IMG/VR virus record: IMGVR_UViG_3300022927_001391
Coordinates: 41,169-105,168 of that record
DNA length: 64,000 bases
From: a virus
Strand: one strand, 5' to 3'
The position numbers were made by a program, and so were the translations under genes. Below the pieces are notes generated by a model that saw only the letters and a list, made by a program, of their open reading frames with translations, did no database searches and was not told the origin of the DNA. Each line of letters opens with the position of its first letter. Position 1 is the first letter of the stretch. Of this stretch, positions 18,264-55,400 are shown piece by piece.

Positions 18264-18265
18264 CC

Positions 18266-19389: not shown

Positions 19390-19417
19390 TTGACACATAG
19401 CACAGATGTGCTATGTT
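19390..19417 (+). promoter_or_regulatory. Promoter of the MoxR/CobS-like ATPase gene
   Basis: AAAGGTTGACA with the -35 at 19390-19395, a 16-bp spacer ending ATGTGC, then TATGTT at 19412-19417. It has a perfect -35 and extended TGC but a weaker -10. An AAGGAG site follows, seven bases before the ATG. Confidence 0.75.
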
Positions 19418-38555: not shown

Positions 38556-39393
38556 ATACGTACTCTGCCCATTGTTTGTGATAGTCTGCTAACGGATGTT
38601 GATTACGGAATATATTAGTATCTGAGTAATGCTGTTCTCTGTATTCAACACTGTCTATTAGCTGTAACATCCATTGCTTAAAGTCTACTAGTTGTTTACC
38701 GCTAACAAACTCTTCGATAGTCAGCAGTCTTTCAACTGCTGTCATATCTGTATAGACACATTTGTCGTCAGTAATTCCTATTGTTTTGTACCAAGCGTCA
38801 AAACTTGAAGTGAAACCTAAACTATCTATCATATTAGTAGTAAGGTATAGATTAACGTGAGGAAACTGTAAACTGTTGCGTATTTGTTTTATAGCCGTTG
38901 TATTTAACAATTCCAAAAGACTGTAATAATCATTAGGTGTGTTTATATTTTGTTTGAACCACTCTACGTAGTCAAAGTCATGATCAATATCTGTGTTAAA
39001 CATTCTACCAGCACCTGTAAACACACAGACTACTAGGATCTTTTCATAGTTTAACAATGGCACAATATTGGCAAACTCAGTTATCCTGTTAGCCATCCAT
39101 TGATTTCCTTGAGCACACAATGCGAGATTTAACCAGTCCGAGCCCATCATACCTGAGAGTTGGTTTCCCCAAACGGATTTTAATCTATAGTCATCGTCAG
39201 AGTTGTTCTCGCTTATATCGCTACCCCAAGTCCAACTATCTCCGACAGTAACTAGTAGAATGTTGCTTGATCTGCTTACAAAGTCAAAAGTGTTTGTAGG
39301 AGTTAGATACCAGCTATTAGTGCTATCAGCGATAGTAAAATACCTAGGAAGTACTTCTTTAGCTAAAACTATTGGCAATGTATTTGCACTCAT
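38533..39393 (-). CDS. SGNH-hydrolase-like protein
   Basis: The 286-residue protein contains LLVTVGDSWTWGSDI (about 46-60), block I of SGNH hydrolases, followed by LNLALCAQGNQWMANRI with a block-II/III-like Gly-Asn. The last part has NIFRNQHPLADYHKQWAEY, where HPLADYH fits the C-terminal catalytic His block. It is a paralogue of the proteins at 25597 and 45357. Deacylation or O-acyl transfer on a glycan is the likely activity. It overlaps its neighbours by 23 and 35 bases, which is typical for this island. Confidence 0.65.
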   Translation of the reverse strand: MSANTLPIVLAKEVLPRYFTIADSTNSWYLTPTNTFDFVSRSSNILLVTVGDSWTWGSDISENNSDDDYRLKSVWGNQLSGMMGSDWLNLALCAQGNQWMANRITEFANIVPLLNYEKILVVCVFTGAGRMFNTDIDHDFDYVEWFKQNINTPNDYYSLLELLNTTAIKQIRNSLQFPHVNLYLTTNMIDSLGFTSSFDAWYKTIGITDDKCVYTDMTAVERLLTIEEFVSGKQLVDFKQWMLQLIDSVEYREQHYSDTNIFRNQHPLADYHKQWAEYVYENINYR

Positions 39394-40729
39394 TCCAAAA
39401 CTCTGACATTTCAGGAAATGTTTCTAAAAAGTTCGTACCGCGTCTGCGATCATGTTCACTAAAAAATCTATAAAAGTCTGCTCTGCGTGTATCAATGTCA
39501 CTTACATTATCCACACCTTGCATCCATGCTAGATCACGTCTCATCTTTAGTACTTCGTAGTCCTTAAATCCGTGCATCTCATCTAAATTGGATTCCATAA
39601 ATTTTATACAGTCTTTAAGATATAACTGATATGCCGGAGTTAATATCTGCATACTTTGCCATTCAGGAGTATACAGTAATGGAGTATCAAACCAAATACG
39701 CTGATAACTTTTGGTATAAGTCTTGCGAAGGTATAAAATATACTCTAGCAGTTTCTGCAGACTAATAATACTTAAATTATTCATTGTAATTATCAAGGTA
39801 AGACTGGAACGCTCAGGAACCTCTTTTATAAACTGTTCAATGCGTGACTTACAAAGTTCAAAGTCAAGTCCATGCCTAATGTATTCTGCTTGTGCACCCC
39901 AAGTATCCAAGCTGACAAACTGCATGAAGTGTTCTATTTGTTCGCCAGTGCATAGTCGTTTAACATAGTCCATGTAGCGAGTAAAGATACGTTCGTCCAC
40001 ACTAAAGTTACTTGTTACGTTTAAGTGAAGATCAGGCTTTGGGTTCTCAAGTACATAATCAAACACACGATAGGTGTTTGGATCCATGGTAGGTTCGCCG
40101 CCGGTCATACGAAAGTGTTTAAGGTCTTTGTATAGGTCTGGCCACCAACGCCAGAATGCTTCACGATATGGATTAGTGTCCCTATTAGGAATAGGCTTAC
40201 GTTCGCCTTTAAAATGTGCAGGATCATTATGAGGAGTGCTTGTAGGATAAGCACCAAACTCATCTGCTTCACGTTCCCATGTACTGCTAAACTGTGGACT
40301 ACAATAACTACACTTTAGATTACAACTGTTATTAAAGTTAACTTCTACGTAACTGGGATTAACATCTGCTTGTGGGTTTGCTACAATGTCTTCGAATGCC
40401 TCCATAGCCCAAGGCTCACCGCTGCGATAATGCCTATCACTGAGGTCACCGTTTTTCTCAATATTCCAACAGTAGTTACATTCGGCACACTTTACACCTG
40501 CCATCATTTCGGCACGTCGTTCTTTCTTGTGTGCTGTATTGTGTAGTGCGCTTGGATTACTTGCTAGTGGCTCTACGGGTATGCGGTGCAATGGGGGATG
40601 GTAGCAACTGTTAGTATGCCCTGTTGTTAGATGTAAACTAACTTGTTTCCATTTTGCCAAGCAGAAACTGCCGCTAACACCTGCCATACGTGCTTTTGCT
40701 ATGTTTGCGTCTGTCAGATAGTCACTCAT
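39359..40729 (-). CDS. Radical SAM protein with N-terminal twitch-like domain (SCYHPP type)
   Basis: The 456-residue protein has SFCLAKW (C23), SCYHPP (C42 and H44) and the CAECNYCW cluster (C81, C84, C87) as its N-terminal module. It then has the radical-SAM core SCNLKCSYCS (C136, C140, C143) with QFSSTWE, and MTGGEPTMDPNTYRV. It resembles the 35363 protein in its auxiliary ligands and in the segment after the core, so those two form a subfamily within the island. Start and stop overlap neighbours by eight and 35 bases. Substrate unknown. Confidence 0.83.
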   Translation of the reverse strand: MSDYLTDANIAKARMAGVSGSFCLAKWKQVSLHLTTGHTNSCYHPPLHRIPVEPLASNPSALHNTAHKKERRAEMMAGVKCAECNYCWNIEKNGDLSDRHYRSGEPWAMEAFEDIVANPQADVNPSYVEVNFNNSCNLKCSYCSPQFSSTWEREADEFGAYPTSTPHNDPAHFKGERKPIPNRDTNPYREAFWRWWPDLYKDLKHFRMTGGEPTMDPNTYRVFDYVLENPKPDLHLNVTSNFSVDERIFTRYMDYVKRLCTGEQIEHFMQFVSLDTWGAQAEYIRHGLDFELCKSRIEQFIKEVPERSSLTLIITMNNLSIISLQKLLEYILYLRKTYTKSYQRIWFDTPLLYTPEWQSMQILTPAYQLYLKDCIKFMESNLDEMHGFKDYEVLKMRRDLAWMQGVDNVSDIDTRRADFYRFFSEHDRRRGTNFLETFPEMSEFWNECKYIANSFS

Positions 40730-41657
40730 TGGCTAACTCTATCAAACGTTGTTGATTATTTTTAAGCCTGTCAGTTATAGTGTTGTAGTCTACAGGGTTT
40801 CGCATAAACTTTTGTAAACTATTAAAAACTTTATCCACTCTTATATAGCTGCTTTCGGTATCATAGGTTTTATCTAGTATATCATCGAACGTATCAAAAC
40901 CTAATTCTCTGAGATTACGCTCATAGTTAGGACTTCCTATTACTAGAAAAAGTCTACCGTAATATATTGGCCTAAATATTTTTTCTGTCATAAAAAAAGT
41001 TCCAGAAGCTATATTTGTTTCGCACACAATTTCAATAGCTATATTATTATACGTTTCATGCCAAATTGGATCCAAGTCAAATCTACAAATCTGTGTAAAT
41101 GTATCTTGTGTACCGAAATGAAAATTTTTATCTATAATATCACTATAGGGCAGGATTGGTTTTATTTCCTGCCATTTTTCGTTGTTTTCACAAATAAAGG
41201 GAGTGAAATCACAGTTGGATTCTAAAGTATTATTAATGTTTACATGGCAAGTAGCGATACAGTTTTGCATCTTTCTTGATTTCCAAAATGCATATAAACG
41301 TTCATTAGTACCTCTACCTGTAAACAAACCAAAATTATTTTTATATGGATTGTTGAAGTCAATAGGTTTTAAATTTTTTGGCAGTAGACGGTTTTTAACT
41401 GTATTTACAACAAATGTTTCACTTTTGCCTAGCCTATCTGTAGATTCAAAAGTTATATTACTATACGGAATATGAAGTTTATTGGCAATGTCTTTTACTA
41501 TATTTTCTATACCATTGGCAACAATATCCCAGCCATCAGTACCTAAACTTAAAACAATAGGTTTACCTGTTTTATGTATTGCTGCTATTTCTAGTGCTAG
41601 AAGATGAGTGTCTCTAATGTGACTAGCACCGCAGTATTTTGTTAAATCAATCTTCAC
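40722..41657 (-). CDS. GT10-like glycosyltransferase
   Basis: The protein has FFMTEKIFRPIYYGRLFLVIG then LRELGFDTFDDILDKTYDTESS, the donor-site pattern of the TEK family. Its front half carries KPIVLSLGTDGWDIVANG (Rossmann-like) and the basic FGLFTGRGTNERLYAFW. I chose the GTG at 41657 because it leaves an 11-base overlap, as elsewhere in the operon; the longest frame starts at 41714 and would overlap by 68 bases. It is AT-rich. It is the fourth paralogue of its kind here. Confidence 0.62.
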   Translation of the reverse strand: MKIDLTKYCGASHIRDTHLLALEIAAIHKTGKPIVLSLGTDGWDIVANGIENIVKDIANKLHIPYSNITFESTDRLGKSETFVVNTVKNRLLPKNLKPIDFNNPYKNNFGLFTGRGTNERLYAFWKSRKMQNCIATCHVNINNTLESNCDFTPFICENNEKWQEIKPILPYSDIIDKNFHFGTQDTFTQICRFDLDPIWHETYNNIAIEIVCETNIASGTFFMTEKIFRPIYYGRLFLVIGSPNYERNLRELGFDTFDDILDKTYDTESSYIRVDKVFNSLQKFMRNPVDYNTITDRLKNNQQRLIELANE

Positions 41658-42186
41658 GCAAAAACCCACTAATTTGCATGGTGTATTTGTCTTGCATGCC
41701 TGCATTAGCACCAAGATGTATTACACTGCTATCCCATAGTAATGCATCACCTTGTTTCCAATGTGTAAAGTTTTTAAATTCCTTACCGTCTTCGCTATAC
41801 TGTATAAAATGTCCCAGACAGTAATCTTCCATATGTATATTGGCACGTACTTTAAGTTCTGTTCTTTCAGGAAATTTTTTATTGATCTGATAAAATGTAT
41901 CTCTATGTAGTGGTATAACACAACCTGGGGGTTGTTTAATGGCGCTGACAGTAACAACTTCGATACCTATCTGATTGCCAATTTCATCGAAATCAATATC
42001 ATCCTTAGTATACCATAACTGATGTATGCGAGTATTAAGGTATTCGTAAGCAGTAGGTGCACCATATTTTTTATGAAGATCTGTTAGTTCATGTACCTGA
42101 TGACTAATACAACTACCTTCATGTAATGTAAAGTCTGCTTGTAAAAACTTGTCGTAATCTATATTTAATTTAAGTTTCTTAAACAT
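41647..42186 (-). CDS. 2OG-Fe(II) oxygenase-like protein (HxD...H)
   Basis: The 179-residue protein has a compact beta-helix iron site, IPLHRDTF with H94 and D96, and a distal His in SSVIHLGANAG, followed by the tail KYTMQISGFLRED, where a basic or aromatic residue would hold 2-oxoglutarate. The middle has ANIHMEDYCLGHFIQYSE and WKQGDALLWD. It looks like the complete version of the fragment at 1-191. Likely an hydroxylase; its position in the island suggests a sugar or peptide substrate. It follows the 42187 gene without a gap. Confidence 0.72.
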   Translation of the reverse strand: MFKKLKLNIDYDKFLQADFTLHEGSCISHQVHELTDLHKKYGAPTAYEYLNTRIHQLWYTKDDIDFDEIGNQIGIEVVTVSAIKQPPGCVIPLHRDTFYQINKKFPERTELKVRANIHMEDYCLGHFIQYSEDGKEFKNFTHWKQGDALLWDSSVIHLGANAGMQDKYTMQISGFLRED

Positions 42187-43113
42187 TTACCATCCTTCAA
42201 CTTTCCTAATAACTTCTAGTTCTGTAGTCATAGGATCATATGCGTGATAAGTCTGACTGTAGTAGTGTTTAAAGAACCGGCTCTCTTCTGCTGTATAATC
42301 CACAATAGGAAGTTCTAGTTTACGTCTAAGTTGCACACCATATTCTGTAAAGTTAGTATCCAACCAAGATTGTTCTTCTTCCCAAATCTGATCAAGGGCT
42401 GCAAAGTCTCTTACTTCATGCCAGTCCCAGTCTGTCAGCATGAGCTTGTATGTGCCATAACGTGCACCATACATTGCTTCATAACCATACTCAGTGTCCT
42501 GTCCTACACTTTGCCAGATGCAGAGCTTGTCAAAGTTTTTTGCGTGTACCTGCTGTTTGAATTCTTCCAGTGTAGGCTTGCGTCCTTTCATCAAACACAT
42601 CTTTACACCTTCTCTGAATCCTGCACGCCACGCATGTTTAGCATCGCCATTAGGATAGGTAGTACTATATACATTGTTCATTGGAATGTACTTGCTGTCG
42701 TAGCAAAACTCTACTACGGTTTCGTCACTACCATCTGTTGCTTCGTGTGTTTGCATATTATTTACAAACTCACGTGTCCAACAACTAAGTCCACCATTGC
42801 CGTACATAAGTCCGTTAACAGCGTTACGTGCTTTCCAACGAAACACACAATCCTCATGCTCGGGCTTAATATCTAACTGTAGGTCAAAGAATGATTCGTC
42901 AGGTATATTGTCTCCGTCTATGAGAACAAAGCGTTCTGTTTCACTTGCTGCGGCGGCTGCTTTGTGTGCTGCGTCACTGCCTTCAACGCCATCCACACGT
43001 TTAGCCCAAGGCACAATGTTTTGTATCCTTACCCAAAACTCTTCTTTCTGTGGTTCGTCGTAGCTTAGATAGATGCAGTCTAAGTCAGCTATGTCTACTA
43101 GTTGTCCAGCCAC
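42187..43113 (-). CDS. Glycosyltransferase-like protein with DxD motif
   Basis: The 308-residue protein has the GT-A-like order: IYLSYDEPQKEEFW, AKRVDGVEGSDAAHKAAAAASETERFVLIDGDNIPD (DxD-like at IDGD), NAVNGLMYGNGGLSCWTREFV, and AWRAGFREGVKM. It lines up with the second half of the 24354 protein, so it is likely the active member of the pair. Donor and acceptor are unknown. The gene overlaps the 76-residue gene by 16 bases and abuts the oxygenase gene. Confidence 0.72.
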   Translation of the reverse strand: MAGQLVDIADLDCIYLSYDEPQKEEFWVRIQNIVPWAKRVDGVEGSDAAHKAAAAASETERFVLIDGDNIPDESFFDLQLDIKPEHEDCVFRWKARNAVNGLMYGNGGLSCWTREFVNNMQTHEATDGSDETVVEFCYDSKYIPMNNVYSTTYPNGDAKHAWRAGFREGVKMCLMKGRKPTLEEFKQQVHAKNFDKLCIWQSVGQDTEYGYEAMYGARYGTYKLMLTDWDWHEVRDFAALDQIWEEEQSWLDTNFTEYGVQLRRKLELPIVDYTAEESRFFKHYYSQTYHAYDPMTTELEVIRKVEGW

Positions 43114-43328
43114 TCATGCAACCTTGCTACATCTTCGTGACTGTCTGTTATAACACGAATACCACGTGCATATACTGTGCGGTCTAGTTCGTAAGTAGAA
43201 CTAAATGACTGTTCACAAAACTGTTTTAGCTCTGTAAATAGTTCTTGATTGTCCTTAAACTGACTTTCTAGAATTTGCTCGCCCTTTTCTACACTATGGG
43301 GCAGAGGAACAAATACTTCATTTTGCAT
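43098..43328 (-). CDS. Small hypothetical protein
   Basis: The 76-residue protein is MQNEVFVPLPHSVEKGEQIL..., acidic and helical, with ELFTELKQFCEQSFSS and TVYARGIRVITDSHEDVARLHEWL. I do not recognise it. The last segment (RGIRVITDSHEDVARL) looks like a small alpha/beta unit. It overlaps both neighbours (11 and 16 bases), so it is expressed with the glycosyltransferase genes. Confidence 0.5.
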   Translation of the reverse strand: MQNEVFVPLPHSVEKGEQILESQFKDNQELFTELKQFCEQSFSSTYELDRTVYARGIRVITDSHEDVARLHEWLDN

Positions 43329-43635
43329 TTTGAATCTCCTTTATACAAAAATATGGATTATTTTTTAAAGTAATTGCTGGTGTTACTTGCCAATATACAT
43401 GGATAGCTGTATCTATATCTACGATTTTGCCATCTTGAACACGCTGTCTCAGAGGATATACTAGTGTATCTTCTGATATAACAATATAATCTTCAGTCCA
43501 GTGTTCTGCTTTATTTACGTGACACCAGTTAATAATTTCACCAGTTTCTTTATTATAACGCAAACGAACTTCCAGTTCAATTTTAGTGCGCTTTTGTAGC
43601 TTTTTAGCTATTAATTGTTCTAACTCTGTACTCAT
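43318..43635 (-). CDS. Small hypothetical protein
   Basis: The 105-residue protein has an N-terminal basic helix (ELEQLIAKKLQKRTKIELEVRLRY) and a beta-rich C-terminus (WTEDYIVISEDTLVYPLRQ, HVYWQVTPAITLKNNPYFCIKE). The layout resembles small nucleic-acid or regulatory proteins, but I cannot name one. It overlaps the glycosyltransferase gene by 32 bases at its start and the 76-residue gene by 11 bases at its end. Confidence 0.5.
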   Translation of the reverse strand: MSTELEQLIAKKLQKRTKIELEVRLRYNKETGEIINWCHVNKAEHWTEDYIVISEDTLVYPLRQRVQDGKIVDIDTAIHVYWQVTPAITLKNNPYFCIKEIQNAK

Positions 43636-44449
43636 ATCTATCTATCAATTCTGGAGTGCAAAATGTTTTATCGAAATAATGGAACGGATACTGTTGCGCA
43701 TACCCGCCTACAATTAGATCAAAGTCGTCTGTTAGTGTCCATGGTACAGCATCCTGCCAGCGCATGCTATTCTTCCAGTTATTAATAGCTGGCTTCATGT
43801 GTGTAAATGTAGGATAACTTAATTTGTTTGAACAAGGTATTCCAAGATTTGACTGGGCCAATCCATATAGAACATCAGTGTCAGGTTTGTCATAGATGCT
43901 ATACTCAAGAACACTGTCACGCAACTCAGCCCAATGGTGTATCGCCTGCTCAATAGCTCTACAGAAGCCCACACTAGTCCTACTATACCTAAAATATGAA
44001 AACCCATTATAAGCATCATCAAGGGAATTGGCATCAAAAAACTTCCTGTAGTAACGTGTTTGGGCAATATTACCCTGATAGTCTCTTACACTATTAGTAT
44101 AGCACACATCTTGTAATCTACAACCATTCCACCAGTGGTCCAAACTGCGAGGAATCAGCATGTCGCTTTCTACTTTAAATGTTTCCTTAAAAGGTGTAAC
44201 ATTCATTACCCACGCTTCGTTATAGAAAGGCTCTGTGTGTGGTACTGTAATAATGTGATCAAAGGTTTTACGTTGCTGTTCTGTAATGGTCGCCTCAGAT
44301 TCAGCATCAACTACTACAGCAAATCTATTATGCTTACAGGTTGCTTTTACACTAAGAGCAAGCAAATAGGCGAGGTCAACATAGTTTGTTGTCTCACTAT
44401 TCTGTGCAAATGTTAGCCAACCCTGTGGTTCTACTTTTTCTCGATACAT
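43604..44449 (-). CDS. GT8-like glycosyltransferase
   Basis: The 281-residue protein has the pattern of GT-A retaining transferases: NYVDLAYLLALSVKATC and FAVVVDAESEATITEQQ early, then NEAWVMNVTPFKETFKVESDMLI. The ESD stretch in KVESDML occupies the DxD position (metal and nucleotide-sugar binding). The rest is Trp/Tyr-rich (FSYFRYSRTSVGFCRAIEQAIHHW). The gene at 44582 is a likely paralogue with DVD in the same place. Donor unknown. It overlaps the AbrB-like gene by 19 bases and the downstream gene by 32. Confidence 0.65.
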   Translation of the reverse strand: MYREKVEPQGWLTFAQNSETTNYVDLAYLLALSVKATCKHNRFAVVVDAESEATITEQQRKTFDHIITVPHTEPFYNEAWVMNVTPFKETFKVESDMLIPRSLDHWWNGCRLQDVCYTNSVRDYQGNIAQTRYYRKFFDANSLDDAYNGFSYFRYSRTSVGFCRAIEQAIHHWAELRDSVLEYSIYDKPDTDVLYGLAQSNLGIPCSNKLSYPTFTHMKPAINNWKNSMRWQDAVPWTLTDDFDLIVGGYAQQYPFHYFDKTFCTPELIDRYEYRVRTINS

Positions 44450-44601
44450 AAACCGACTTCTGTTTGTTCTACTATTAATATATCGCCTTCTTTCCAGCCT
44501 GTCATTTCTAATAGCTCTGCAGGTAGATTCATTATAACATTGTTGGGATCATCCTGAATGTCTTCAAAAATATCTTTGACTTTAAATGTTAGCGTAGTCA
44601 T
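44431..44601 (-). CDS. AbrB/MazE-like small protein
   Basis: A 56-residue frame exactly fills the space between two glycosyltransferase genes, with overlaps of 19 and 20 bases. The second half, NVIMNLPAELLEMTGWKEGD followed by ILIVEQTEVGLCIEK, is the swapped-hairpin AbrB/MazE pattern (a strand with NLP, a short helix, a GD turn, and two more strands). Small proteins of this type occur in marine T4-like phages, without a toxin partner; the role there is unknown. DNA binding as a dimer is the family expectation. No neighbouring toxin is seen. Confidence 0.7.
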   Translation of the reverse strand: MTTLTFKVKDIFEDIQDDPNNVIMNLPAELLEMTGWKEGDILIVEQTEVGLCIEKK

Positions 44602-45364
44602 ACAATGCTCCGTATATTTCTGGATCCTGTAAGCAGGCTTTGTTCATACAGTGTAGGTTTACACCTTTAAGTTTAACAGCATTATACTTGTCACCGTCTT
44701 GATAGCGTATGCGTAGTTCATCTCCGTTAGCAGAATAGATAGTGTCCATTGTACTCAAACTACCCAGTGGATGATTAAAGTAGGTACCACTAGCATAGCC
44801 ATTCATAAGCTGATGTGCAATTGTTAGACTAAAGTCATTGCGATATTTGCCTGCTACAAATCCCCAAAACTTTGCATAGTAACGCCAGTTGGCTTGTACG
44901 TTCTTCATCATTTCAAATATATTATGGGCTAGGTCGCACTTGCGAAAGTAAACGACCGTAGCCCATAACATTGGATGGCCGGCCCTGGTCATCCTTTGAT
45001 CGTTACGGAAACTATTTGTGGAGGTAACATCCCATACACGATCATAACATAAAAACTCATTTGTACTACCAAAGTACTGCTTAAGATTATCATTAAAAGT
45101 AAGGTAGTCTACGTCTATTAAGAGTGTTTCATCATAAGGGCTTAAATCATATGCCAGTGTTCTATCACTGTTGTACCAGGGCACTGTGACAACTTCGCCT
45201 TCATGCCAGCGGAATGCTCTAGTATTGCCAGGCCGCGCTTCACCTACATATATATGTGTTTCAATGTCTAAATGTTTTTCTACAAGTTTGGCAGCTAGTT
45301 TAGCAAACCCTATGTAGTCTATTGTTTCATGTGGTGTAGCAAGTAGTAGTGCACCCTTACTCAT
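44582..45364 (-). CDS. GT8-like glycosyltransferase
   Basis: The 260-residue protein shows DYIGFAKLAAKLVEKHLDIETHIYVGE at the front and SPYDETLLIDVDYLTFNDNL, where DVD marks the DxD site. HPMLWATVVYFRKCDLAHNIFEMM and NHPLGSLSTMD follow. It is a probable paralogue of the 43604 protein; both are close to GT8 in layout. Overlaps are 20 bases with the AbrB-like gene and eight bases with the SGNH gene. The substrate is not known. Confidence 0.65.
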   Translation of the reverse strand: MSKGALLLATPHETIDYIGFAKLAAKLVEKHLDIETHIYVGEARPGNTRAFRWHEGEVVTVPWYNSDRTLAYDLSPYDETLLIDVDYLTFNDNLKQYFGSTNEFLCYDRVWDVTSTNSFRNDQRMTRAGHPMLWATVVYFRKCDLAHNIFEMMKNVQANWRYYAKFWGFVAGKYRNDFSLTIAHQLMNGYASGTYFNHPLGSLSTMDTIYSANGDELRIRYQDGDKYNAVKLKGVNLHCMNKACLQDPEIYGALYDYANI

Positions 45365-46034
45365 CTAAGATACTATCCAATAAAAAATCAGCATAAGCAG
45401 CATGCCCTTTTTCATCAGGATGACCTGCCCATCCATATTGATCATGATCCCAGGGTGTTAGATTATTATCTTGCATTATTTGGTGCAAACTATTTTCAAA
45501 CATGTTTATAAATCTAGGTCTGGACTGTATTTGTTCGTATATTTTATTAGCAAATACAAAATCATTGTCAATGTCAAAGTTGAAACCTAAATTATGTATT
45601 ATAAAATTTTTATTATTGTGGCTAAGATAATCATGTAGTTGAAGTAGATTAAACAGAACATTTACTTCCATATACTGCCAGTCAAATAATTGTTGTGTTT
45701 CTCTAGTAGCATCAGTAATTTGAAAACTTTTAATACTGTCCTCTTCTCTCCATCTTTTATATTCGTTGTCTCTAATACTATAGCTAGGAACATCATCTGT
45801 GAAGTGTTCTAAACGTTGTACAACTCCTATGCCAATAAGCATAAGACTGTCTTGTTCACTTAGACTGTACCTAATAGCTGATCTTATAATTTGGGCAGGG
45901 CTTTTCCGGGTAAATCCATAGTGCTCTAAATCTAAACCTAGTCTTTGTGCTAATATATGACCAGTTGTTGTTTTTTGTCCGGCAGGCAATGCCATACTAT
46001 GACTATCCCCATCGTAATATAATTTTTTAGTCAT
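45357..46034 (-). CDS. SGNH-hydrolase-like protein
   Basis: The 225-residue protein has LYYDGDSHSMALPAG (block I, with the Ser nucleophile), and near the end WAGHPDEKGHAAYADFLL, where GHPD is the block V His region (DxxH-type). LMLIGIGVVQRLEH gives a Gly-rich block II/III. It has the same family layout as the proteins at 13496, 25597 and 38533. A deacylase or acyl-transfer role on a glycan is likely. It overlaps its neighbours by 8 and 4 bases. Confidence 0.7.
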   Translation of the reverse strand: MTKKLYYDGDSHSMALPAGQKTTTGHILAQRLGLDLEHYGFTRKSPAQIIRSAIRYSLSEQDSLMLIGIGVVQRLEHFTDDVPSYSIRDNEYKRWREEDSIKSFQITDATRETQQLFDWQYMEVNVLFNLLQLHDYLSHNNKNFIIHNLGFNFDIDNDFVFANKIYEQIQSRPRFINMFENSLHQIMQDNNLTPWDHDQYGWAGHPDEKGHAAYADFLLDSILDE

Positions 46035-46357
46035 AGTTGTTCTACACGTCTAACCTTTTTTAATTCAGCATGTTGATTGTGCCAATCATTCATTACTTCG
46101 TACCAGCGTTGTCTACAGTGTACTAACATGTCACAAGCATCTGTAATCTTTACTGGATTATCGTAGTCGTCTACGAGATATAGCAGTTCATCTGCTGGCC
46201 ATGTTGCTAGTAGGGCTATTAGTTCTACTGTAACTTTAAACTGTCCACCATCATATGTGATAGTGAGACGCTGTTCCTGTTGTTCTTTAAGAGCCAAGCG
46301 TTGACGATTGTGGTCAAGACGCTGGCGTGCGAATTGTTCAAATGTTTCTAAGGTCAT
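46031..46357 (-). CDS. Small phage protein, first gene of the island
   Basis: The 108-residue protein begins MTLETFEQFARQRLDHNRQRLALKEQQ and continues ITYDGGQFKVTVELIALLATWPADELLYLVDDYDNPVKI. This DGG..V...LI..L..W...LLDD.DNP pattern is common in T4-like marine phages without a function. I chose the ATG at 46357. No ribosome site precedes it, and the predicted start of transcription (about 46358) is only a base away, so the mRNA may be leaderless. A longer frame would begin with a TTG inside the promoter, which is unlikely. Overlaps the next gene by four bases. Confidence 0.65.
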   Translation of the reverse strand: MTLETFEQFARQRLDHNRQRLALKEQQEQRLTITYDGGQFKVTVELIALLATWPADELLYLVDDYDNPVKITDACDMLVHCRQRWYEVMNDWHNQHAELKKVRRVEQL

Positions 46358-46364
46358 GTAAGAT

Positions 46365-46393
46365 AGTATAACAGGGCTCGAAAGCCCTGTCAA
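46365..46393 (-). promoter_or_regulatory. Consensus promoter at the head of the rSAM/GT operon
   Basis: On the minus strand: TTGACA (46393-46388), a 17-bp spacer and TATACT (46370-46365). It is the only clear promoter before the 22-kb island. Its spacer is almost completely filled by a perfect hairpin (46371-46390). Confidence 0.65.
46371..46390 (-). terminator. UUCG-loop hairpin in the promoter spacer
   Basis: ACAGGGCT and AGCCCTGT form a perfect 8-bp stem; on the minus strand the loop reads TTCG, the stable tetraloop typical of T4 terminators. Only a short A/T stretch (TATACTATCTT) follows, not a T-run. It could stop transcripts from the structural genes at 46400 onward while sitting inside the promoter of the next operon. 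Confidence 0.6.
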
Positions 46394-46399
46394 TTACTA

Positions 46400-47341
46400 T
46401 TAAGATTCTGTGTTAACTGTTGTTGCCCAGCTGGGTGTGCCCCAGGTTGCACTAATGTATGTAGTAGCGGGTGCTTGATAACTGAATGTTGTTGTCTTGC
46501 TACCATCTACTTGGTCAAGAACGTTATAAATGTTCTTGTTGTATGATGTTTCGTCTGCTGCGTCGTCAACCCACTCACTCTTGAGTGTCATTACAGTTGA
46601 ACTTCCTGCTGCTGCATTAAGATTTGTTGTAAGTTGAATGTAATTTGCTGTGTATGGAGCACTATCTTCTAATTGTTTAAACACTATTGTTGGTGTTGCG
46701 TTCATATCCCAAAAACCTTCGTTTGTTAGGTTAGTATCAGGTGTACCTGATCCGCCACTCTTGCCACTTGTTGTATTGTAAATGTAGTATGTACCACATG
46801 CTGTGGCAAGTGCTGCCCACTCGTTGTACTTGTCATCAGCAGTACCACCTGATATACTCCAATCTACGTATACACGGCCGCCTGCGTTAAAGAAGTAACG
46901 CATTGCATTAGTACTAGTAAATGTAAGTGTATCGGTTTGTGTAATTGTATTTGTAAATGTTCCGCTTACTACTGCTGTATCTGTAACTGCTGTTGCGTAT
47001 CCTGCTGCTACACTCGCTACAGCAATCTGTGCACCATCGATGACTCCAATGTCTGCTGCTAGTGTGCTAAACGCACTAATTGTATTACCAGCACTTGGGT
47101 TTGCAACTTCATCAATTGTAATACCACCGTCTTGACCGTAGTGATCACTGAGTGAACGAACTCTATCTAGTAGTGTACTCCACTGTGTTGCAGTAACAGT
47201 ATTTCCTGCACTAACTGCGGATACAGTTGTGCCCTGGCCAATGCCACGATTTCCTGTACCTGTTCCCCACAAAGCATTAACGCTTGTAACAAATCCATTG
47301 TAGTGTGTGGCTGCGATTGTATCACCAGATGTATATGCCAT
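46400..47341 (-). CDS. Virion structural protein (T4-like marine phage tail/baseplate type)
   Basis: The 313-residue protein opens MAYTSGDTIAATHYNGFVTSVNALWGTGTGNRGIGQG, a beginning shared with structural proteins of cyanophages, and has VTATQWSTLLDRVRSLSDHYGQDGG. The rest is beta-rich with Thr/Ser/Asn (TFTNTITQTDTLTFTSTNAMRYF) and ends in YISATWGTPSWATTV. It is a likely tail or fibre-associated protein. The AGGAAG site precedes the ATG; it lies 15 bp after the fibre gene. The hairpin at 46371 follows. Confidence 0.78.
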   Translation of the reverse strand: MAYTSGDTIAATHYNGFVTSVNALWGTGTGNRGIGQGTTVSAVSAGNTVTATQWSTLLDRVRSLSDHYGQDGGITIDEVANPSAGNTISAFSTLAADIGVIDGAQIAVASVAAGYATAVTDTAVVSGTFTNTITQTDTLTFTSTNAMRYFFNAGGRVYVDWSISGGTADDKYNEWAALATACGTYYIYNTTSGKSGGSGTPDTNLTNEGFWDMNATPTIVFKQLEDSAPYTANYIQLTTNLNAAAGSSTVMTLKSEWVDDAADETSYNKNIYNVLDQVDGSKTTTFSYQAPATTYISATWGTPSWATTVNTES

Positions 47342-47356
47342 GTTTTGTTCTTCCTA

Positions 47357-48796
47357 TTAGTTAATTGTTACGAAGGCTTCTACTGTTCCGGTACCTTCGG
47401 TTGTTTTGGATTCGATAGCACGGCCAATTACGTTAAATGATGTTGCTTCACCGGGGTGTGCTGCTCTTGCCAGTCCGTTACCTGCACTAACTAGTCTATC
47501 ACCTTTATTTATTAGGCCAGTCACATTTACTGGTGTTCTGCCCGCAACAGCGACCGGAGAACCATCTCTTAGTTTAGCGTTCATTAGGTATGCTGGTTGA
47601 TTGCTAATTACACCAAATACAGTATCACTTAGTTCTTCGTTAACACGAGTAATTTCTGCTGCACCTCCTAGTGCAACAACTGTACCAGGAGCATACTGTG
47701 CGTCTGCAGCAAAGTTTTCTGCAACGTCAGCGTATTGTGCGCTTGTTGCTACACCATAGAATGTATCTGCATACACTGCATTAAACGGTGTACCACTTGA
47801 ACCAATGTCCTGTGTTCCATCTAAGCTTAGTAGGTCACCACTGAGTGTTGCTGTAAGTAATGTGCTTGTTGCGTTATCAACATAATTCTTTGTTGCTACA
47901 CCATTGCTAGTTGTTGGATCACCAGCAACTACTAGTCTTGATGTTGCACCATCAATTGTTAGTGCAGTTGTAGTAACACCACCATCATTTACTTTAAAAA
48001 TAAGGTCGCCGTCGCTGGTCACGTTTGAAACTGTAACATCGCTACCGCTTACGCCCACTGTAAAGTCACTGTCAACACCAACAACAATACCAGTATCGTT
48101 TAGGATACTTAGTACGCCGCTTGTGCTATCACTAGCATCAGCACGTAAGAAGTTTGCTGCTGCTACGCCGCCTAGTGCGTCTGCGTCTGTTGCTGTACCC
48201 TGGAACTTAGCACCACTAACTGTTGAACTTAGCTGTACACCTGGCTTAATTGTGGAGAAGCCGCCAAGTGCGCTCTGTGGTGTAAATTCTGTGTCTTTGC
48301 TAACAGTACCAACTACAGTGTTTGCTACATATAGTTTAACAACTACGTGGTCTGTAGCACCGCTATCTGTAACTGTTTCAACAATAGCACCAGAAGTACC
48401 AGATCCGCTAGTAAATGCTGGACCAATAGTTACGAAACTAGAACCGTTATAAACCTTTAACTGTCCGTTGGTTGTATCCCACCAAAGATCGCCAGTTACA
48501 CTACCAGTTGGTGTGCTAGCACTAGCTGTACTCGAGCTAACAGTTTTAAATGCAGTGCCAGTATAAACCTTAAGTAGGCTATTTGTACTGTCCCACCACA
48601 TCTGTCCAGCCACTGGGCTGCTTGGTGCGCTAGTATTACTAAAATTTTCTAATAATTTAACGAAGTTTTCGTTAAGGAACTCGCCGTATCCAGCGTAGTT
48701 CTTACCAACAAGTGTTATGTCAGTAGTGGTATCGATCGTACCGTCTGAAACAGTTGTTAGCACTGTACCACTGGTTTTATTAATTGTATAAGCCAT
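47357..48796 (-). CDS. Tail-fibre-like structural protein
   Basis: The 479-residue protein starts MAYTINKTSGTVLTTVSDGT and has IDTTTDITLVGKNYAGYGE, LNENFVKLLENF and two copies of a W-W-D module (GQMWWDSTNSLLKVYTG, GDLWWDTTNGQLKVYNG). That N-terminal part is common in T4-like tail fibres. The middle is Thr/Val-rich repetitive beta structure. The C-terminal 120 residues (AQYADVAENF...GTVVALGGAAEITRVN...PAYLMN...VAVAGRTPVNV) match the end of the 49520 protein, a shared fibre tip module. Late promoter at 48827. Function: host attachment. Confidence 0.85.
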   Translation of the reverse strand: MAYTINKTSGTVLTTVSDGTIDTTTDITLVGKNYAGYGEFLNENFVKLLENFSNTSAPSSPVAGQMWWDSTNSLLKVYTGTAFKTVSSSTASASTPTGSVTGDLWWDTTNGQLKVYNGSSFVTIGPAFTSGSGTSGAIVETVTDSGATDHVVVKLYVANTVVGTVSKDTEFTPQSALGGFSTIKPGVQLSSTVSGAKFQGTATDADALGGVAAANFLRADASDSTSGVLSILNDTGIVVGVDSDFTVGVSGSDVTVSNVTSDGDLIFKVNDGGVTTTALTIDGATSRLVVAGDPTTSNGVATKNYVDNATSTLLTATLSGDLLSLDGTQDIGSSGTPFNAVYADTFYGVATSAQYADVAENFAADAQYAPGTVVALGGAAEITRVNEELSDTVFGVISNQPAYLMNAKLRDGSPVAVAGRTPVNVTGLINKGDRLVSAGNGLARAAHPGEATSFNVIGRAIESKTTEGTGTVEAFVTIN

Positions 48797-48826
48797 ATCG
48801 TTTAGTTCTCCACAAACTTTATAAAT

Positions 48827-48834
48827 TATTTATC
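48827..48834 (-). promoter_or_regulatory. T4-type late promoter motif
   Basis: GATAAATA on the minus strand at 48834-48827, one base from the T4 late consensus TATAAATA, lies about 30 bp before the 47357-48796 start. A GTGGAG ribosome site sits between them. Confidence 0.55.
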
Positions 48835-48854
48835 ATTAAAATAATATTGTAGTT

Positions 48855-49514
48855 TTATAAACTCGTTAAATTGGTAAGAGTCTGAATACGAATTGTATAA
48901 TCTATCTGTATTAATCTGTTCAAACTCTTTTGTACAGGATGGAAAATAACATGAGTAAGTAGCTTTCCAGTATTAACTGTACCTGCCCAGCTCTTTAACC
49001 CTAACTCGTCAAATGTAAAGTTTTCGTTGAAGTTGCTGGTATTGTCAAATGCCTGCTGTCCGCTAGGCTCGCCATAGTCAAGCAAACAACTTACTACAAC
49101 ATCAGTATAAATGTTACCGCTAACGTGGCTTACAGTAAGTTTGTTTCTGCCCTGATCTGTATTTAGGCTAGAATTATCATCTACTACTTTATAGTATGTT
49201 TGGTTATATAATGCTGCGTTAGCGCCAGTACTGTTGGCTGGCAGATATGTAATAACGCCAGTAGGGTCTACACTAGTCCCGCCGTTGCCAAACGCCATTT
49301 CATGTATAAAGCCGGTTGTTTTGTTAGCAATGCTAAGAGCAAGTGCTTCGCTCATATTTTCGTAATGGATCGCGTTACGTTTGTTTACAAAGTCCTCACC
49401 AGTCTCAGGGTCAAAAATTCGAATATGTCCTTCCATGAGAACACCGCCGTTTTCCCGTAATCCTGGCTTGGTTTTGTCTCGCTGCTCATCAGTCATGTTG
49501 TTCTCTTCTGTCAT
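48855..49514 (-). CDS. Conserved structural protein of T4-like marine phages
   Basis: The 219-residue protein contains EGHIRIFDPETGEDFVNKRNAIHYENM, AFGNGGTSVDPTGVITYLPANSTG and LDYGEPSGQQAFDN, which form a signature of a cyanophage virion protein family. It ends GKLLTHVIFHPVQKSLNRL and YTIRIQTLTNL. The baseplate or fibre-connector region is the likely location. I chose the ATG at 49514, since it follows AAAGG; an earlier Met lies inside the upstream gene. Five bases separate it from the preceding gene. Confidence 0.8.
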   Translation of the reverse strand: MTEENNMTDEQRDKTKPGLRENGGVLMEGHIRIFDPETGEDFVNKRNAIHYENMSEALALSIANKTTGFIHEMAFGNGGTSVDPTGVITYLPANSTGANAALYNQTYYKVVDDNSSLNTDQGRNKLTVSHVSGNIYTDVVVSCLLDYGEPSGQQAFDNTSNFNENFTFDELGLKSWAGTVNTGKLLTHVIFHPVQKSLNRLIQIDYTIRIQTLTNLTSL

Positions 49515-49519
49515 TATAG

Positions 49520-52402
49520 TTATACCTTTAGGACACATTCAATAAGTTTTTCACCTGTATCAGCATTTGTTTCAAGAGCTATGCCAACACGAGCGCCATC
49601 TGCTGTCGCACTAGCAACACCGTCGTGATCCGCATAAACCGCTTGACCCTTTACTACTGAACCTACTACTCTCACAGGAACACGACCTACTAGTGCGACA
49701 GCAACGCCGTTTTCTAAATCGCTATTCATTAGATAGGCTGGTGCAGTACTTATCACACCTACAGGTATGCTGTCTTGTTTACAATATGTTACTTCTGCAC
49801 CGCCACCAACTGTCATTACTGTACCAAATGGATATTCTGCATCTGGTAGATAACGTTCTGCTAAGTCAGCGTATTGCGCTGCTGTGGTTGTAGCAGTGAT
49901 AGTGCCTGCACTAAAGTTACCGCTACCATCACGGAATACAATAGTACTTGCAGTATTTGAGCTTGTAGCATTGGATGTAACAGTAAATGTCGCACCTTCT
50001 GCGCTTGCGCTGCCAGTTAGTCCATTACCGCTTACTGCGCCTGCTGCAACGTAGTTACCAGTTGTGTCTGTACCTAGTGCAACTGAGTTGGCAGCGATCG
50101 TTGTAGTAATGCTAATATTGCCAGATCCATTAAATGATGCGCTCGTTCCGGTCACATCACCTGTCAAACTTAGAGTACGAGCAGTTTGCCAAGCTGTTGC
50201 CGTGGTAGCGTTGCCACTTAGTGAAGCAGTAATTGTGCCTGCTGTTAGATTTCCATATGCAAAATTAGCATCGCCAGTATCAATTGTGGTTCCGGTGGGC
50301 TCTGCTCCGTAATCACCAAACAGCTTCCACATACCACCATCACTAGCGTCACGGAATAAACCAGCATGAGCTGCTCTACTACCATTGTAATAATGTCCAG
50401 CAAATCCAATATCTACTAAGTCACTAGACTCGTTCCCAACTGCCAAACGGATTAAAGGATCAGCAACATCCAAGTCAGTAGCACTGACTGTTGTCGTCGT
50501 ACCCAATACGCTCAAGTTGCCTGTGACTTCCAAAGCGCCACCAACACTTAAATCATTTGTAATTGTTACATCACTTGGCAATCCTATTGTTACAGTATTA
50601 TCTGTAACTGCTGTTTCGATCTCATTTGCTGTACCACTAAATGTAAGTGTATCAGTACCAAGAGTAATTGTATCTGTACCACTGTCACCAGCAATATCTG
50701 TAGTTGTCACTATGCTAGATGTTTGTGTGTCAACATATTCTTTTGTAGCAGCATCAGAGTTTACAGTTGGAGTTGCTAGATTAGTAATTTTGTTGGCGCC
50801 AACATCAATTGTCTGACTGCCTGCTACCGTAAATCCAGCGTCAAAATCAGCACTTGTGGAAAAAGTTATAGCATTGCTAAATGTAATAGCGCCTGTTACT
50901 GTACTACCAATACTTGTAATGTCACTTAAATTACCTGTTGTAATAACTGTACCACTAACATCAGGCAGTGTAACTGTGCGATCTGCGGTTGGATCTGTAA
51001 CAGTTAGTGTAGTTTCAAAAGCGTTGTCAGTAGCACCTTCAAAAACGATGTTGGCAGCAGTAGTAATATCACCGGAAATATCCAATCCTGTTAGTGTGCC
51101 TACACTTGTAATATTTGTTTGTGCTACGGTGGTAAGTGTTCCTGCTAGATTTGTTGCTGTTACTGTATCAATGTAAGCTTGTGCCCATTCTGTACCTACT
51201 GCACCTAAGTCATAAGTGCTATCTACGCCTGGCAGTAAATCACCTGTAATGTTTACTGTTCCTGTACCATTGGTAACGATGTTGATATCGTTATTAGTGA
51301 CAAGATTGCTGATTGTGTTACCACCAATTTCAATATTACCGAAGTCTGGTGCAGCAGTAAGAGCAATGCTAATATCGTCTGTATTTTCAGTTACACTAAA
51401 ATTGCTGTCAAAAATTAGCGTTTTCAGTTTGAAATCTACACCAACTTTAGTTTTAAAAATCTCAGCACCTGTACCCACATTTGAAATTGTGTTTGCTTCA
51501 CCGCCAGATGCTCCAGGTGCAACTGCTGGTTCCCATTCTCCGTCCATAGCGTTCCATGTTAAAACATCGTTTGCATTAGGCGTAGCACTTGTAACATCCA
51601 CGTCACTTAGGTCGCCAATACTTGCTGCTGCGATGCGAGCGTCTGATCTAGCATTTGTATAGTATAAGTTCGATGCACCTTCTGGCAATACATCTGTATT
51701 AACCTGATTTGCGCCAGTACCAAAATCAATATGTGTATCATTAATACCATCTGCTGCTAGTACAACATTACCGCTAGTTACTATAAAGTTTGTAGTATCA
51801 AAACTTGCTATGCCCTTGTTAGATATACTTGCATCTTCAGCACTAATAGTTAATGTGTCACCACTCTGTGCAGTGTCAATACCTTCACCACCTGTTACTG
51901 TAAGGGTGTCGCCTAGATCAATAGCTGTGCTACCACTATCGCCTGCCAGTGTAATAGTACTGTTTGTAATACTACTATTAGGAATACTTGCTAGAGCAAT
52001 TACACCAGTGCCAGCAGTGTAGGTAATACCAGTAGCCGTTGTAGCACTGAAATGGGCTCGTACTTCACTTGCGCTAGGTCCAGTGTAGGTTATAACACCT
52101 GTTGTACTATTGTAACTTAGACTGCCATCACCACCACTATCTGTAACACTAATAGCAGCTCTAGCTCTGGTATTTGTGAAGTACATAGTTCCGCTAGTTA
52201 CGCTAGCACTAGGGTCTTCCGTTAAGTCTGATGTATCAATAACTAAATTATTTGTGGATGCGCTAGTAATTGCAACTCCATTAATAGTTTTTACATAGTT
52301 ATTTTCCAAATCGTTAGTTCTAGTATTCAGATCAGAAAAGTTTCCATCTACTTCTGTAAATGTAAGTGGTGTACTTTTACTACTACGGAGAACTATTGCC
52401 AT
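49520..52402 (-). CDS. Large tail-fibre-like structural protein
   Basis: The 960-residue protein starts MAIVLRSSKSTPLTFTEVDGNF, a beginning seen in phage fibres, and is built from repetitive beta-strands (NLYYTNARSDARI, TGTVNITGDLLPGVD, ATTATAWQTARTLSLTGDVTGT). A near C-terminal module (AAQYADLAERYLPDAEYPFG, AEVTYCKQDSIPVGV, APAYLMNSDLENG, VGRVPVRV) is homologous to that of the 47357 protein. The perfect late promoter TATAAATA is 26 bp upstream. It is the main candidate for receptor binding along its length. Its many Thr/Ser/Asn repeats make it likely to recombine and vary. Confidence 0.87.
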   Translation of the reverse strand: MAIVLRSSKSTPLTFTEVDGNFSDLNTRTNDLENNYVKTINGVAITSASTNNLVIDTSDLTEDPSASVTSGTMYFTNTRARAAISVTDSGGDGSLSYNSTTGVITYTGPSASEVRAHFSATTATGITYTAGTGVIALASIPNSSITNSTITLAGDSGSTAIDLGDTLTVTGGEGIDTAQSGDTLTISAEDASISNKGIASFDTTNFIVTSGNVVLAADGINDTHIDFGTGANQVNTDVLPEGASNLYYTNARSDARIAAASIGDLSDVDVTSATPNANDVLTWNAMDGEWEPAVAPGASGGEANTISNVGTGAEIFKTKVGVDFKLKTLIFDSNFSVTENTDDISIALTAAPDFGNIEIGGNTISNLVTNNDINIVTNGTGTVNITGDLLPGVDSTYDLGAVGTEWAQAYIDTVTATNLAGTLTTVAQTNITSVGTLTGLDISGDITTAANIVFEGATDNAFETTLTVTDPTADRTVTLPDVSGTVITTGNLSDITSIGSTVTGAITFSNAITFSTSADFDAGFTVAGSQTIDVGANKITNLATPTVNSDAATKEYVDTQTSSIVTTTDIAGDSGTDTITLGTDTLTFSGTANEIETAVTDNTVTIGLPSDVTITNDLSVGGALEVTGNLSVLGTTTTVSATDLDVADPLIRLAVGNESSDLVDIGFAGHYYNGSRAAHAGLFRDASDGGMWKLFGDYGAEPTGTTIDTGDANFAYGNLTAGTITASLSGNATTATAWQTARTLSLTGDVTGTSASFNGSGNISITTTIAANSVALGTDTTGNYVAAGAVSGNGLTGSASAEGATFTVTSNATSSNTASTIVFRDGSGNFSAGTITATTTAAQYADLAERYLPDAEYPFGTVMTVGGGAEVTYCKQDSIPVGVISTAPAYLMNSDLENGVAVALVGRVPVRVVGSVVKGQAVYADHDGVASATADGARVGIALETNADTGEKLIECVLKV

Positions 52403-52428
52403 CTTTATTATATTCCTGCTTTATTCTA

Positions 52429-52436
52429 TATTTATA
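52429..52436 (-). promoter_or_regulatory. Perfect T4 late promoter motif
   Basis: TATAAATA on the minus strand at 52436-52429, identical to the T4 late promoter, 26 bp before the 960-residue fibre gene, followed by an AGGAA ribosome site. The genes before it are structural, so late transcription fits. Confidence 0.7.
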
Positions 52437-52446
52437 TAAACTTTCG

Positions 52447-55400
52447 TTAGGGTCTTACCTCAACATAACCGTCCTCTACATATCCATCTTCTAGATAATA
52501 TGGAGAGTTACTCTCTGCTATGAAGTTGGGTACAAATGCTTCTCGTGCTCTTAAGAATCTAGCATTCACACTATTACTTGCCTGTAAGCCAGCACCATTA
52601 GCTGCTGATCCTACTCCAGCATCATACCATATATGTGTATGCGTATTAGTTTCTGGTAAATTTTGATCAGAACTTGCATCAATCACTCTTGTACCTACAC
52701 GGTGTATTGTAGCAAATCTGGTGCCAGCAGTACTTCTTCTAATATTGGTAATATAATTGTCTTCTGTGTTAATTTCCCAATAAGTTACACGCTCATTGCC
52801 AACAAAAATTACACCTGGATTATCACTGTCTACACTTGCCTGTGGTAGCTTACTGACATCATCCACATAGATTTTTGTATCAGTTGGGTATAAGTTTTGT
52901 GTTAATTCTGTTGTATTATCAGCGGCAATTCTCAAATATTCATAATCACCCAGCATGTTTTTAAAGATTCTAAAACCAATAGTTGGTTGGACGACATTTT
53001 CTGTAAAATGAGATATAACTATTATACTAGTAGAATCAATAGTTTGACCAGATAAGTCAATAACGTTTCCATTTTCAATTATAAACTGTCCGGGATGTAG
53101 TTTTACACCGTTTAACGTTATCCACAAATTATTGCTATTGGTTACTGTACGATCCAGGGCATATTTGCTAGGAGAGCTACCAGCTAGTGATATTCCGTCA
53201 AAGTCGCCAGAGTCAAAGCTATCATCGTCAAATCCTATTACTGTTTCTAAAATCTCCGAACCTAATCCTACGAATACCTTGGTTTGTATACGTAATGGAT
53301 CATGGTTAGCAAATGTTGTAACATACAATTTATCACCTGTACTGAAACTTACGCTGCTAGTAAGTGTAATAGTGTTTCCATCTACTAGATATTCTGCTCC
53401 TGTTCTCACACTTACAATAACTGTATCACCTGAGCTTGGTGCAGTATAGAATGTTATAGTTCTTAAACTACTGCCATCTGTTGGATCAACAACATAATCA
53501 ATACTTGCTACTTTGTTGGTTGGTGGATTTAGTGTACTACTGTCATCTTTGCTTATGACAGTTACTCGGATATCACCATCGTTAACAAGAGCGCTTTCTT
53601 CTGCTGTGCCTGGGATACTATAAGTTACTGTACTACCATCGCCCACATAGTGCTTTGCGTTTGTTGGTCGTAGTCTTAAATTGTTAAGTTCAACAATAAC
53701 ATTGCCCTCAAAAGGTTGAGCATATCGTACAGTTTTATTCAACTCGTATGTATTAGTACCAGAAGTTAAGGTTATTTCCTGAGTATCGATCTCAGTATAC
53801 GCTTGTCTGCTAGGATCTTTGTTGAAAGCAAACACGTGAACATGATCATTTTCTGCAGGAACGTCATTTAATATAAGGATGCTAAGTCCATTGTCTTGCA
53901 CTGTATATTCTGCTGTTGACAAGGTTTCACCATTTATCAATACAAGATATTGTTGTGCTAAGTCGTAATTGATACCTAAAGTAAATGTAAATGTTTCACC
54001 ATCTGTAAAGAACGATTCCTCATGCACGGGCTTTTCACCAGTGTTACCAAAACTGTAAATGTACACTGTTTGACCTACAGTAGGTGCAGTAGCTAATGTT
54101 ACTGTTCTATTCAAATAATTTTTAGTGAATGATCTAACAGGTGTAGCGTTTAAGTACACAAACACGTTTTCTACATCTTGTGCTTTTGTAGTATTACTAA
54201 AAATAAACGTATTAGTTGTGCCATCCCCTTCATAAGATCTAAACACTGTTTCAACGCCATTACCATCCCATTCAAAATCATCACTAGGATCTGTAAAGAC
54301 TTCCATATCCAATGTGTCAAATACTATACCTGGTATTACTTCTTCTGGCGCATGACTATTGTATTCATCTACAAACTGTCCACCATTTACATCAATATCT
54401 TCTGGACGAGTTCCTAATGCTAGGTCCTGGAACGTACTCTTAATAATGCTATCAAGTGCGCTAGCACCACTTAATACTGTAAGTCCGTCAGTATCAATAT
54501 CAAAATCGTCAAAACCAACATTATCAAATGCCGCTGTGTCCCAGCCTGGTTCTCTTTCAAAGCCAGCGCCAGATACTCTTACACCTTTATAATCAGTTCC
54601 GCGCTGTAATAGGTCTAGATCGTCACCAAGCATGCCGGCTGTAGGAGTATAAAATGCAGCAATCCTATCAGCATTACTTGCTAGATTTTCATCTGCATAA
54701 ACTTCTAATACTGTAGTTCCGCTTGAGTTCTCTACACTGAAAGTACTGCCGCTGGTAAACCCACCTGAAACGATGCATTTATACACTTCTTGAGAACCTG
54801 TAACTGAGTTATAGTAGGAAATTAAATCATTTTGACTATAAGATGTATTAGCTGCCCAGTTCATAACTGTTGAACTGTAGGTAATTCTATCAAACTTCAT
54901 GCTAATATCAAATTCACGATTTGTATTATTAGCCATTCTGGCTAGTAGAATACATCCTGTTCCAGCACCAGTTACTGTAATAGTAGGAGTAGTAATATAA
55001 CCGCTACCAGGATTTGTAATTCTTACTCTAATAATATTATTAGTATTACTAACAGCAACTACAGTCGCTCTTACTCCGCCAGCAAGATCTGGTGCACTAA
55101 CAGTAACTATCGGATCCTGAATATAACCAGACCCAGCAGCATATATTTCTACGCTTGACAGGAAGTAACTATAATTTTTACTCCAGGGATTATTCAAACC
55201 CTGTGTACGGAGTATTTCATCGCCACTGTAATCACCACTGGGCTTTCTAAACAGCATTAGATTTTCATCATAAAATGCATGAACGTCAAAGTCGGTTACG
55301 TCTCCGTCAAAATTATCATTACCATCAAATTTAGATACATATTCTCTGATCTTGGTATGGTACGGTTTTACCTCGTTTATATAATCTTCAATAAGGTGAT

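Follow-up and report, generated by a model that had tools for sequence, protein, structure and literature searches.

A putative two-in-one promoter and RNA hairpin of 29 bp that recurs in phage gene contexts

Can a sequence of 29 bp serve as a promoter for one group of phage genes and, at the same time, encode an RNA hairpin that acts on the transcript of the preceding group? This question is raised by positions 46365-46393 (minus strand) of the DNA stretch analyzed here, which is referred to as the window; it is 64,000 nucleotides long and corresponds to bases 41169-105168 of a 105,168-base virus record. The record encodes a DNA polymerase matching phrog_262 (E 2e-194), which we read as T4-type, and a MoxR-like ATPase (phrog_1297), and the virus is probably a T4-related phage. 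Upstream of the element lies a same-strand gene of 313 aa (46400-47341, minus strand), whose stop codon at 46402-46400 is found 6 nt ahead of TTGACA. This gene adjoins a structural, tail-fibre-like block, in which 47357-48796 (minus strand) matches virion and tail-fibre PHROGs. An open frame of 3842 codons with TTG as its listed start is also present beside the structural genes at 52447-63975 (minus strand). Downstream, the first gene of the block encodes 108 aa (46031-46357, minus strand), with its ATG at the predicted transcript start, and the next conserved gene encodes 260 aa (44582-45364, minus strand) and showed a weak phrog_1903 match. No family match was obtained for either the 108-aa or the 313-aa gene. 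The downstream block, on the minus strand, contains radical-SAM and Nol-like carbamoyltransferase genes; within the island at 27976-45364 (minus strand), the radical-SAM proteins were located at 30651-31949, 35363-36709 and 39359-40729 and the carbamoyltransferase at 27976-29502. The 313-aa gene was syntenic in all 14 loci tested, and the element was flanked by a 313-aa homologue before it and a 108-aa homologue after it in all 14 loci compared. The boundary between structural genes and island, which the original prediction had placed at the element, was thereby found to be real and syntenic.

Read on the minus strand from 46393, the locus consists of TTGACA, the 17-bp spacer GGGCTTTCGAGCCCTGT, TATACT, ATCTTAC and the ATG at 46357-46355. 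The -35 hexamer TTGACA (46388-46393) was invariant in 24 of 24 homologous loci, and the -10 hexamer TATACT (46365-46370), preceded by TGT as in an extended -10, appeared as TATA(A/C)T in the same 24 loci; the spacing between the two hexamers was 17 bp in 22 loci and 18 bp in 2. The 7-nt discriminator ATCTTAC (46358-46364) was assigned from its spacing to the -10. With 11 of 12 hexamer matches and a spacer of 17, the window site conforms to a sigma-70 promoter, defined here by hexamers at 16-18 bp. The earlier proposal of TTGACA and TATACT 17 bp apart on the minus strand was borne out by these results, and a predicted promoter at the window site is strongly supported. The hairpin ACAGGGCT-TTCG-AGCCCTGT (46371-46390, minus strand), an 8-bp stem with a tetraloop, was recognized from sequence, fold and covariation. 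It comprises the whole 17-bp spacer together with the last three bases (ACA) of the -35 box, so that the perfect 8-bp stem and TTCG loop first described were present but were not confined to the spacer. As RNA, the stem contained 10 pairs (UGACAGGGCU/AGCCCUGUUA), with a minimum free energy (MFE) of -15.5 kcal/mol and a z of -5.0.

Within 36001-56000, the window site was one of the two top-scoring promoter-like sites and, of those two, the sole site in which TG precedes the -10; overall, this region was not enriched in promoter-like sites (67 versus 61.4 in shuffles). Under a stricter promoter rule, the 105-kb record contained 46 sites, among which only the window site had a spacer stem of at least 7 bp, whereas dinucleotide shuffling, repeated ten times, left 0.1 such stems per record on average. 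The motif TTGACA-N16-18-TATA(A/C)T occurred twice in the window versus 0.25 expected. The Rfam 15 covariance models, at the gathering score, gave no match in the window, L065 or L066, and the single hit in the region (E 4.1) was at chance level and lay away from the element.

The homologous loci were collected by protein similarity alone with the 108-aa protein as query, which gave 9, another 2 and a further 13 viral contigs. The 24 loci represent the window and 23 contigs; L562, in which the 5' end was absent, was left out, and L568-L578 repeat contigs that were already counted. We found a perfect 8-bp stem in 23 of the 24 loci, the exception being L006 with one A.C mismatch. The 5'-side stem sequences were GGGCT, GGGGC, GGGCC, GGCGC and GGACC, each with its own complement, and the homologous proteins diverged by up to about 59%. 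In the 18 distinct rows, three stem pairs were changed on both sides by compensation, 99.4% of cells were paired versus 87.5% in shuffles, and 22 cells contained two-sided changes versus 8.5 in shuffles. The covariation score was 0.303 against a shuffle mean of 0.091, and no shuffle out of 500 scored as high; this fraction is not a probability because the shuffles permute the 3' letters among related rows. Control structures slid along the alignment, which retain this relatedness, scored 0.010-0.034 versus 0.303 at the true position. Two of the five pair-count measures (pairs with two-sided changes and further pair types) were not above shuffles, a single-mismatch test of G.U versus A.C counts gave no signal, and 6 of the 10 pairs were invariant within the window's family.

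The start of the 108-aa gene is closely tied to the promoter frame. From the -10 spacing, transcription is predicted to start at 46358/46357, and no Shine-Dalgarno (SD) motif was found ahead of the ATG at 46357. In 22 of 24 loci, the homologous ATG was found at the place where a sigma-70 promoter would initiate, 6-7 nt after the -10. In the remaining loci, L010 and L011, the distance from the -10 to the gene start is 37 nt, and an SD-like motif stands in front of that start. At 6 nt after the -10, these two loci still have an ATG, out of frame, which opens a short reading frame before the SD-led start, perhaps a leader peptide. For the window and for homologues that share its ATG position, the leaderless first gene of the original prediction agrees with anatomy and conservation and remains a prediction; it does not extend to L010 and L011. 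Other hairpin-promoter contexts mostly combined an SD-like motif with a start 20-35 nt downstream of the -10, and an SD-like leader was present at 95 of 122 hairpin-promoter sites elsewhere in an older site list, which included loci selected for pairing and treated the bacterial genome loci L361-L397 as viral. Because most other hairpin promoters have such a leader, leaderless initiation would be a trait of the window's family and not of the design.

The first reading of this DNA covered a single site, without recurrence in other phages. In a scan of 2.9 million viral contigs, the pattern TTGACARGGN8CCYTGTTATACT matched 53 stretches. With a variable gap, TTGACAGGGN{2,20}CCCTGTTATACT matched 55 viral stretches, in which the gap was N8 in all but two, and the two N9 exceptions were relatives of the window gene. 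The gap was free to vary from 2 to 20, yet only N8 and N9 were found, which indicates that the hairpin and the 17-18 bp promoter spacing go together. A pairing scan was then based on TTGACA-SSS-N8-SSS-TGTTATA(C/A)T, which allows unpaired arms and has a chance pairing of 1/8. Near-identical sites were merged before counting, which left 60, 94, 117 and 98 sites, split by scan of origin. Among the matches listed, the arms were paired in 54 of 60 distinct viral TATACT sites (from 80 of 119 stretches) and in 74 of 94 distinct viral TATAAT sites, compared with 17 of 117 for the identical pattern in bacterial and archaeal genomes (genome_contigs). When the spacer was wholly unselected, 8-bp stems were found in 6 of 98 viral sites among the matches listed versus about 0.1 expected.

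Altogether, at least 110 viral sites had 8-bp stems, and grouping by flanking-gene homology placed them in 17 gene contexts. The largest context, a MoxR-like ATPase gene followed by a DUF2201 metallopeptidase gene, accounted for 55 of the 110 hairpin sites among the matches listed, so that the site counts are not independent and the totals are lower bounds. Another identified context is the T4-type gp32 gene. The stem arms varied across families (GGG/CCC, CCG/CGG, CGG/CCG and CCC/GGG). Judged from these sequences, the putative two-in-one promoter and hairpin is a recurrent phage architecture. Its universality is contradicted by the upstream regions of genes of cultured relatives, DLP_6 gp32 and PA5oct, in which no such hairpin was present. 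Spread as a mobile cassette was not favoured, as the sites share only the 29-bp frame and their stems differ. Among cultured phages, Synechococcus phage S-SRM01 contained two hairpin-spacer promoters in 113 promoter-like sites (0.2 in shuffles), at record positions 165173-165201 and 184631-184659; one site shares its first base with the end of a tRNA-Thr gene and stands ahead of tRNA-Gly, and the other lies 10 nt upstream of tRNA-Ala.

Several related arrangements were observed in passing. Contig L028 (IMGVR_UViG_3300043571_000361) carried four hairpin-spacer promoters in 9.2 kb, each ahead of a different small gene. L293, L314 and L318 (genome_contigs; Clostridia-type genomes) shared an identical TTGACAGGGGCGAAAGCCCCTGTTATAAT, a rare bacterial instance of the design. 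In the window itself, 19390-19417 (plus strand) consists of TTGACA, 16 bp and TATGTT, with the inverted repeat ACATAGCAC/GTGCTATGT across the spacer; this site lies after a stop codon and ahead of the MoxR-like ATPase gene at 19446-20555, and L201 and L202 retain it in altered form. At 18216-18330 (minus strand), upstream of a phrog_1314 gene (16924-18216, minus strand), a strong hairpin, GCTTACCCC...GGGGTAAGC, is found directly before TTGACA, and a 5-bp stem is also present within the spacer; hairpin and promoter are adjacent here, not fused. Kagunavirus Shashou, one example from the 739 phage-collection records that matched a 31-base query, was set aside, as it has a separate terminator after the promoter, which is a different design.

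Loops and positions were counted over all 110 listed viral sites whose stem has 8 bp; some of these had been selected for pairing, a selection that bears on pairing only. Among the matches listed, the loops belonged to the UNCG (28) or GNRA (11) class in 39 of 64 distinct family-hairpin types, whereas the reverse-complement classes were found in 0 of 64; the loop-closing pair was C-G in 49 of these types and G-C in 5. The loop orientation corresponded to the direction of the downstream gene, that is, to transcripts coming from the upstream gene. Additionally, 88 of the 96 hairpin sites with enough flank followed a same-strand ORF (60 aa or longer) at a distance of 0-25 nt, in contrast to 17 of 70 non-hairpin promoters with identical hexamers (both among the matches listed). 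Since the loops are strand-asymmetric and a DNA operator or cruciform should be direction-blind, the hairpin would act as RNA and not as DNA, and an RNA-level function on the incoming transcript is supported.

The promoter motif and the hairpin, with their conservation, covariation, strand-specific tetraloops and position behind stop codons, probably constitute a composite element, in which a host-type promoter has a spacer that encodes an RNA hairpin ending, or at least shaping, the upstream transcript. At the DNA level, a host-type sigma-70 promoter (TTGACA, 17 bp, extended -10) would transcribe the 108-aa gene together with those downstream of it, and the mRNA would begin at or beside the A of the ATG and be leaderless. 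At the RNA level, in transcripts from the upstream structural gene, the spacer would fold into the tetraloop hairpin right after the stop codon and so mark where the transcript ends, for which the most probable mechanism is Rho-independent termination or pausing, with a weak U-tract. Since the arms of the RNA hairpin match the -35/-10 frame in position, 29 bp would be enough for both jobs. For this composite element we infer promoter activity, the start site, termination and its efficiency, and leaderless translation.

Termination is the vulnerable part of this reading. As in an intrinsic terminator, the RNA hairpin is stable and GC-rich, with the MFE, z and covariation given above, and it lies close behind a same-strand gene, at 6 nt in the window. 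However, a U-tract of 5 U in the 8 nt after the stem was not found at the window site, which has about 4, and the site was not called by a standard terminator scan. Over the hairpin sites, the mean T content was 3.8 in the 8 nt after the stem, with at least 5 of 8 at 13 of 110 sites among the matches listed; the U-tract is weak because the bases behind the stem are the -10 box. Canonical terminators were not abundant relative to shuffling, with 7 versus 10.7 in 36-56 kb, 14 versus 13.4 in 1-20 kb and 14 versus 11.2 in L065. The original prediction had also allowed the hairpin to end transcripts from the structural genes. An RNA-level role is upheld by compensation, tetraloops, strand asymmetry and post-stop position, but the U-poor tail and the negative scan speak against its terminating part, and the hairpin may terminate the upstream transcript.

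A serious rival reading, although an unlikely one, is that the hairpin acts on the incoming RNA without ending transcription, either by capping or stabilising a trimmed or processed upstream 3' end or by blocking ribosomes or read-through mRNA from the downstream start. The RNA signature and the post-stop position fit such a stabilising or processing role equally well, and the weak U-tract favours it, but a separate event would be required to generate the 3' end, and a stem of 8-10 bp counts as short for RNase III.

The composite reading can be extended to a widespread, repeatedly evolved phage class in which the 29 bp are promoter and terminator, the polymerase is released onto the next start and restarts there, and the leaderless gene of the window's family is read mainly from the restarted mRNA; we regard this extension as rather improbable. 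The underlying relay, in which the polymerase would be halted by the hairpin while its active site is still about 4-6 bp short of the downstream start and would itself re-initiate there, appears quite improbable. The geometry of hairpin and promoter would suit it, and the accessible text of PMC11347151 reports that bacterial RNA polymerase, after hairpin-dependent termination, can be recycled to promoters close by. The proposed relay nevertheless depends on termination being efficient, for which the U-tract offers no assurance.

Control at the DNA level, with the inverted repeat as the operator of a dimeric regulator or as a supercoiling-driven cruciform that opens or closes the promoter, is very improbable. 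Dyads between the -35 and -10 are in classical operator positions, the repeat is perfect, and the asymmetry test is compatible with a hairpin formed on the non-template strand alone. In contrast, the bases of the stem are exchanged both within the window's family and between families, and the conserved half-site of a dyad operator was not found, as three inner pairs vary by compensation. The loops are RNA-type and strand-asymmetric (39 versus 0 of 64 among the matches listed), and the sites follow same-strand stop codons. The compensatory stem variation and the strand-asymmetric loops ruled out an operator or cruciform as the main reading. An ordinary promoter with a spacer that is palindromic by accident has a negligible probability, for although the TTGACA and TGTTATA consensus are partly complementary, which gives some pairing free, and the window shows no general enrichment of promoter-like sites, a chance origin was excluded by the record shuffles (0.1 expected), by the design in 24 of 24 homologues and by the enrichment of pairing in viral contigs over the bacterial-genome control, and recent copying is opposed by the divergence of the proteins (up to about 59%) and of the stems at three pairs.

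For the composite element, a single short sequence is apparently under both DNA-level (promoter) and RNA-level (hairpin) selection in at least 17 phage gene contexts. If termination is true, compact phages would follow a rule by which one transcript ends and the next starts within 29 bp, and this rule would be missed when promoters and terminators are annotated separately. If the restart reading is true, phages would link one transcription unit to the next with no intergenic DNA set aside for the purpose. The element may also be a compact natural part for probing polymerase recycling from terminator to promoter, and the S-SRM01 sites make the idea testable in an isolate.

Several known systems come close to the element. 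It resembles a sigma-70 promoter with an extended -10 in its TTGACA, its 17 bp and the TG before TATACT; however, the spacer of such promoters is normally free sequence, whereas that of the window element is a paired hairpin sharing -35 bases. It resembles a Rho-independent terminator in its GC-rich stem and its UNCG or GNRA tetraloop directly behind a stop codon; a terminator has a U-tract, while the phage element has the -10 in that place, with about 4 U in 8. The promoters of the N4 virion RNA polymerase also have a hairpin inside a phage promoter, but there the hairpin is in DNA and is recognized by a phage polymerase, with no -35 or -10, whereas the window element keeps the hexamers and its hairpin signature is RNA-type. 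A full-text literature search, which covered few subscription papers, gave no description of a terminator hairpin as a promoter spacer, and the cyanophage structured RNAs in the accessible text of PMC2864571 include none of the hairpin-promoter kind. The predicted mRNA of the 108-aa gene is like the bacterial leaderless mRNAs in the portions of PMC9031893 consulted, with an AUG at the predicted 5' end and no SD, although only the window's family among the hairpin promoters is predicted to be leaderless. Leaderless transcripts are reported to escape inhibition by kasugamycin (PMC5230787). Finally, the available sections of PMC11347151 describe RNA polymerase recycling in bacteria after hairpin-dependent termination, with terminator-promoter pairs mostly within about 1000 bp. 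The phage element is similar to these pairs in that a termination site would lie beside a start site, but the bacterial pairs described there consist of two separate elements, whereas the phage element would do both in 29 bp.
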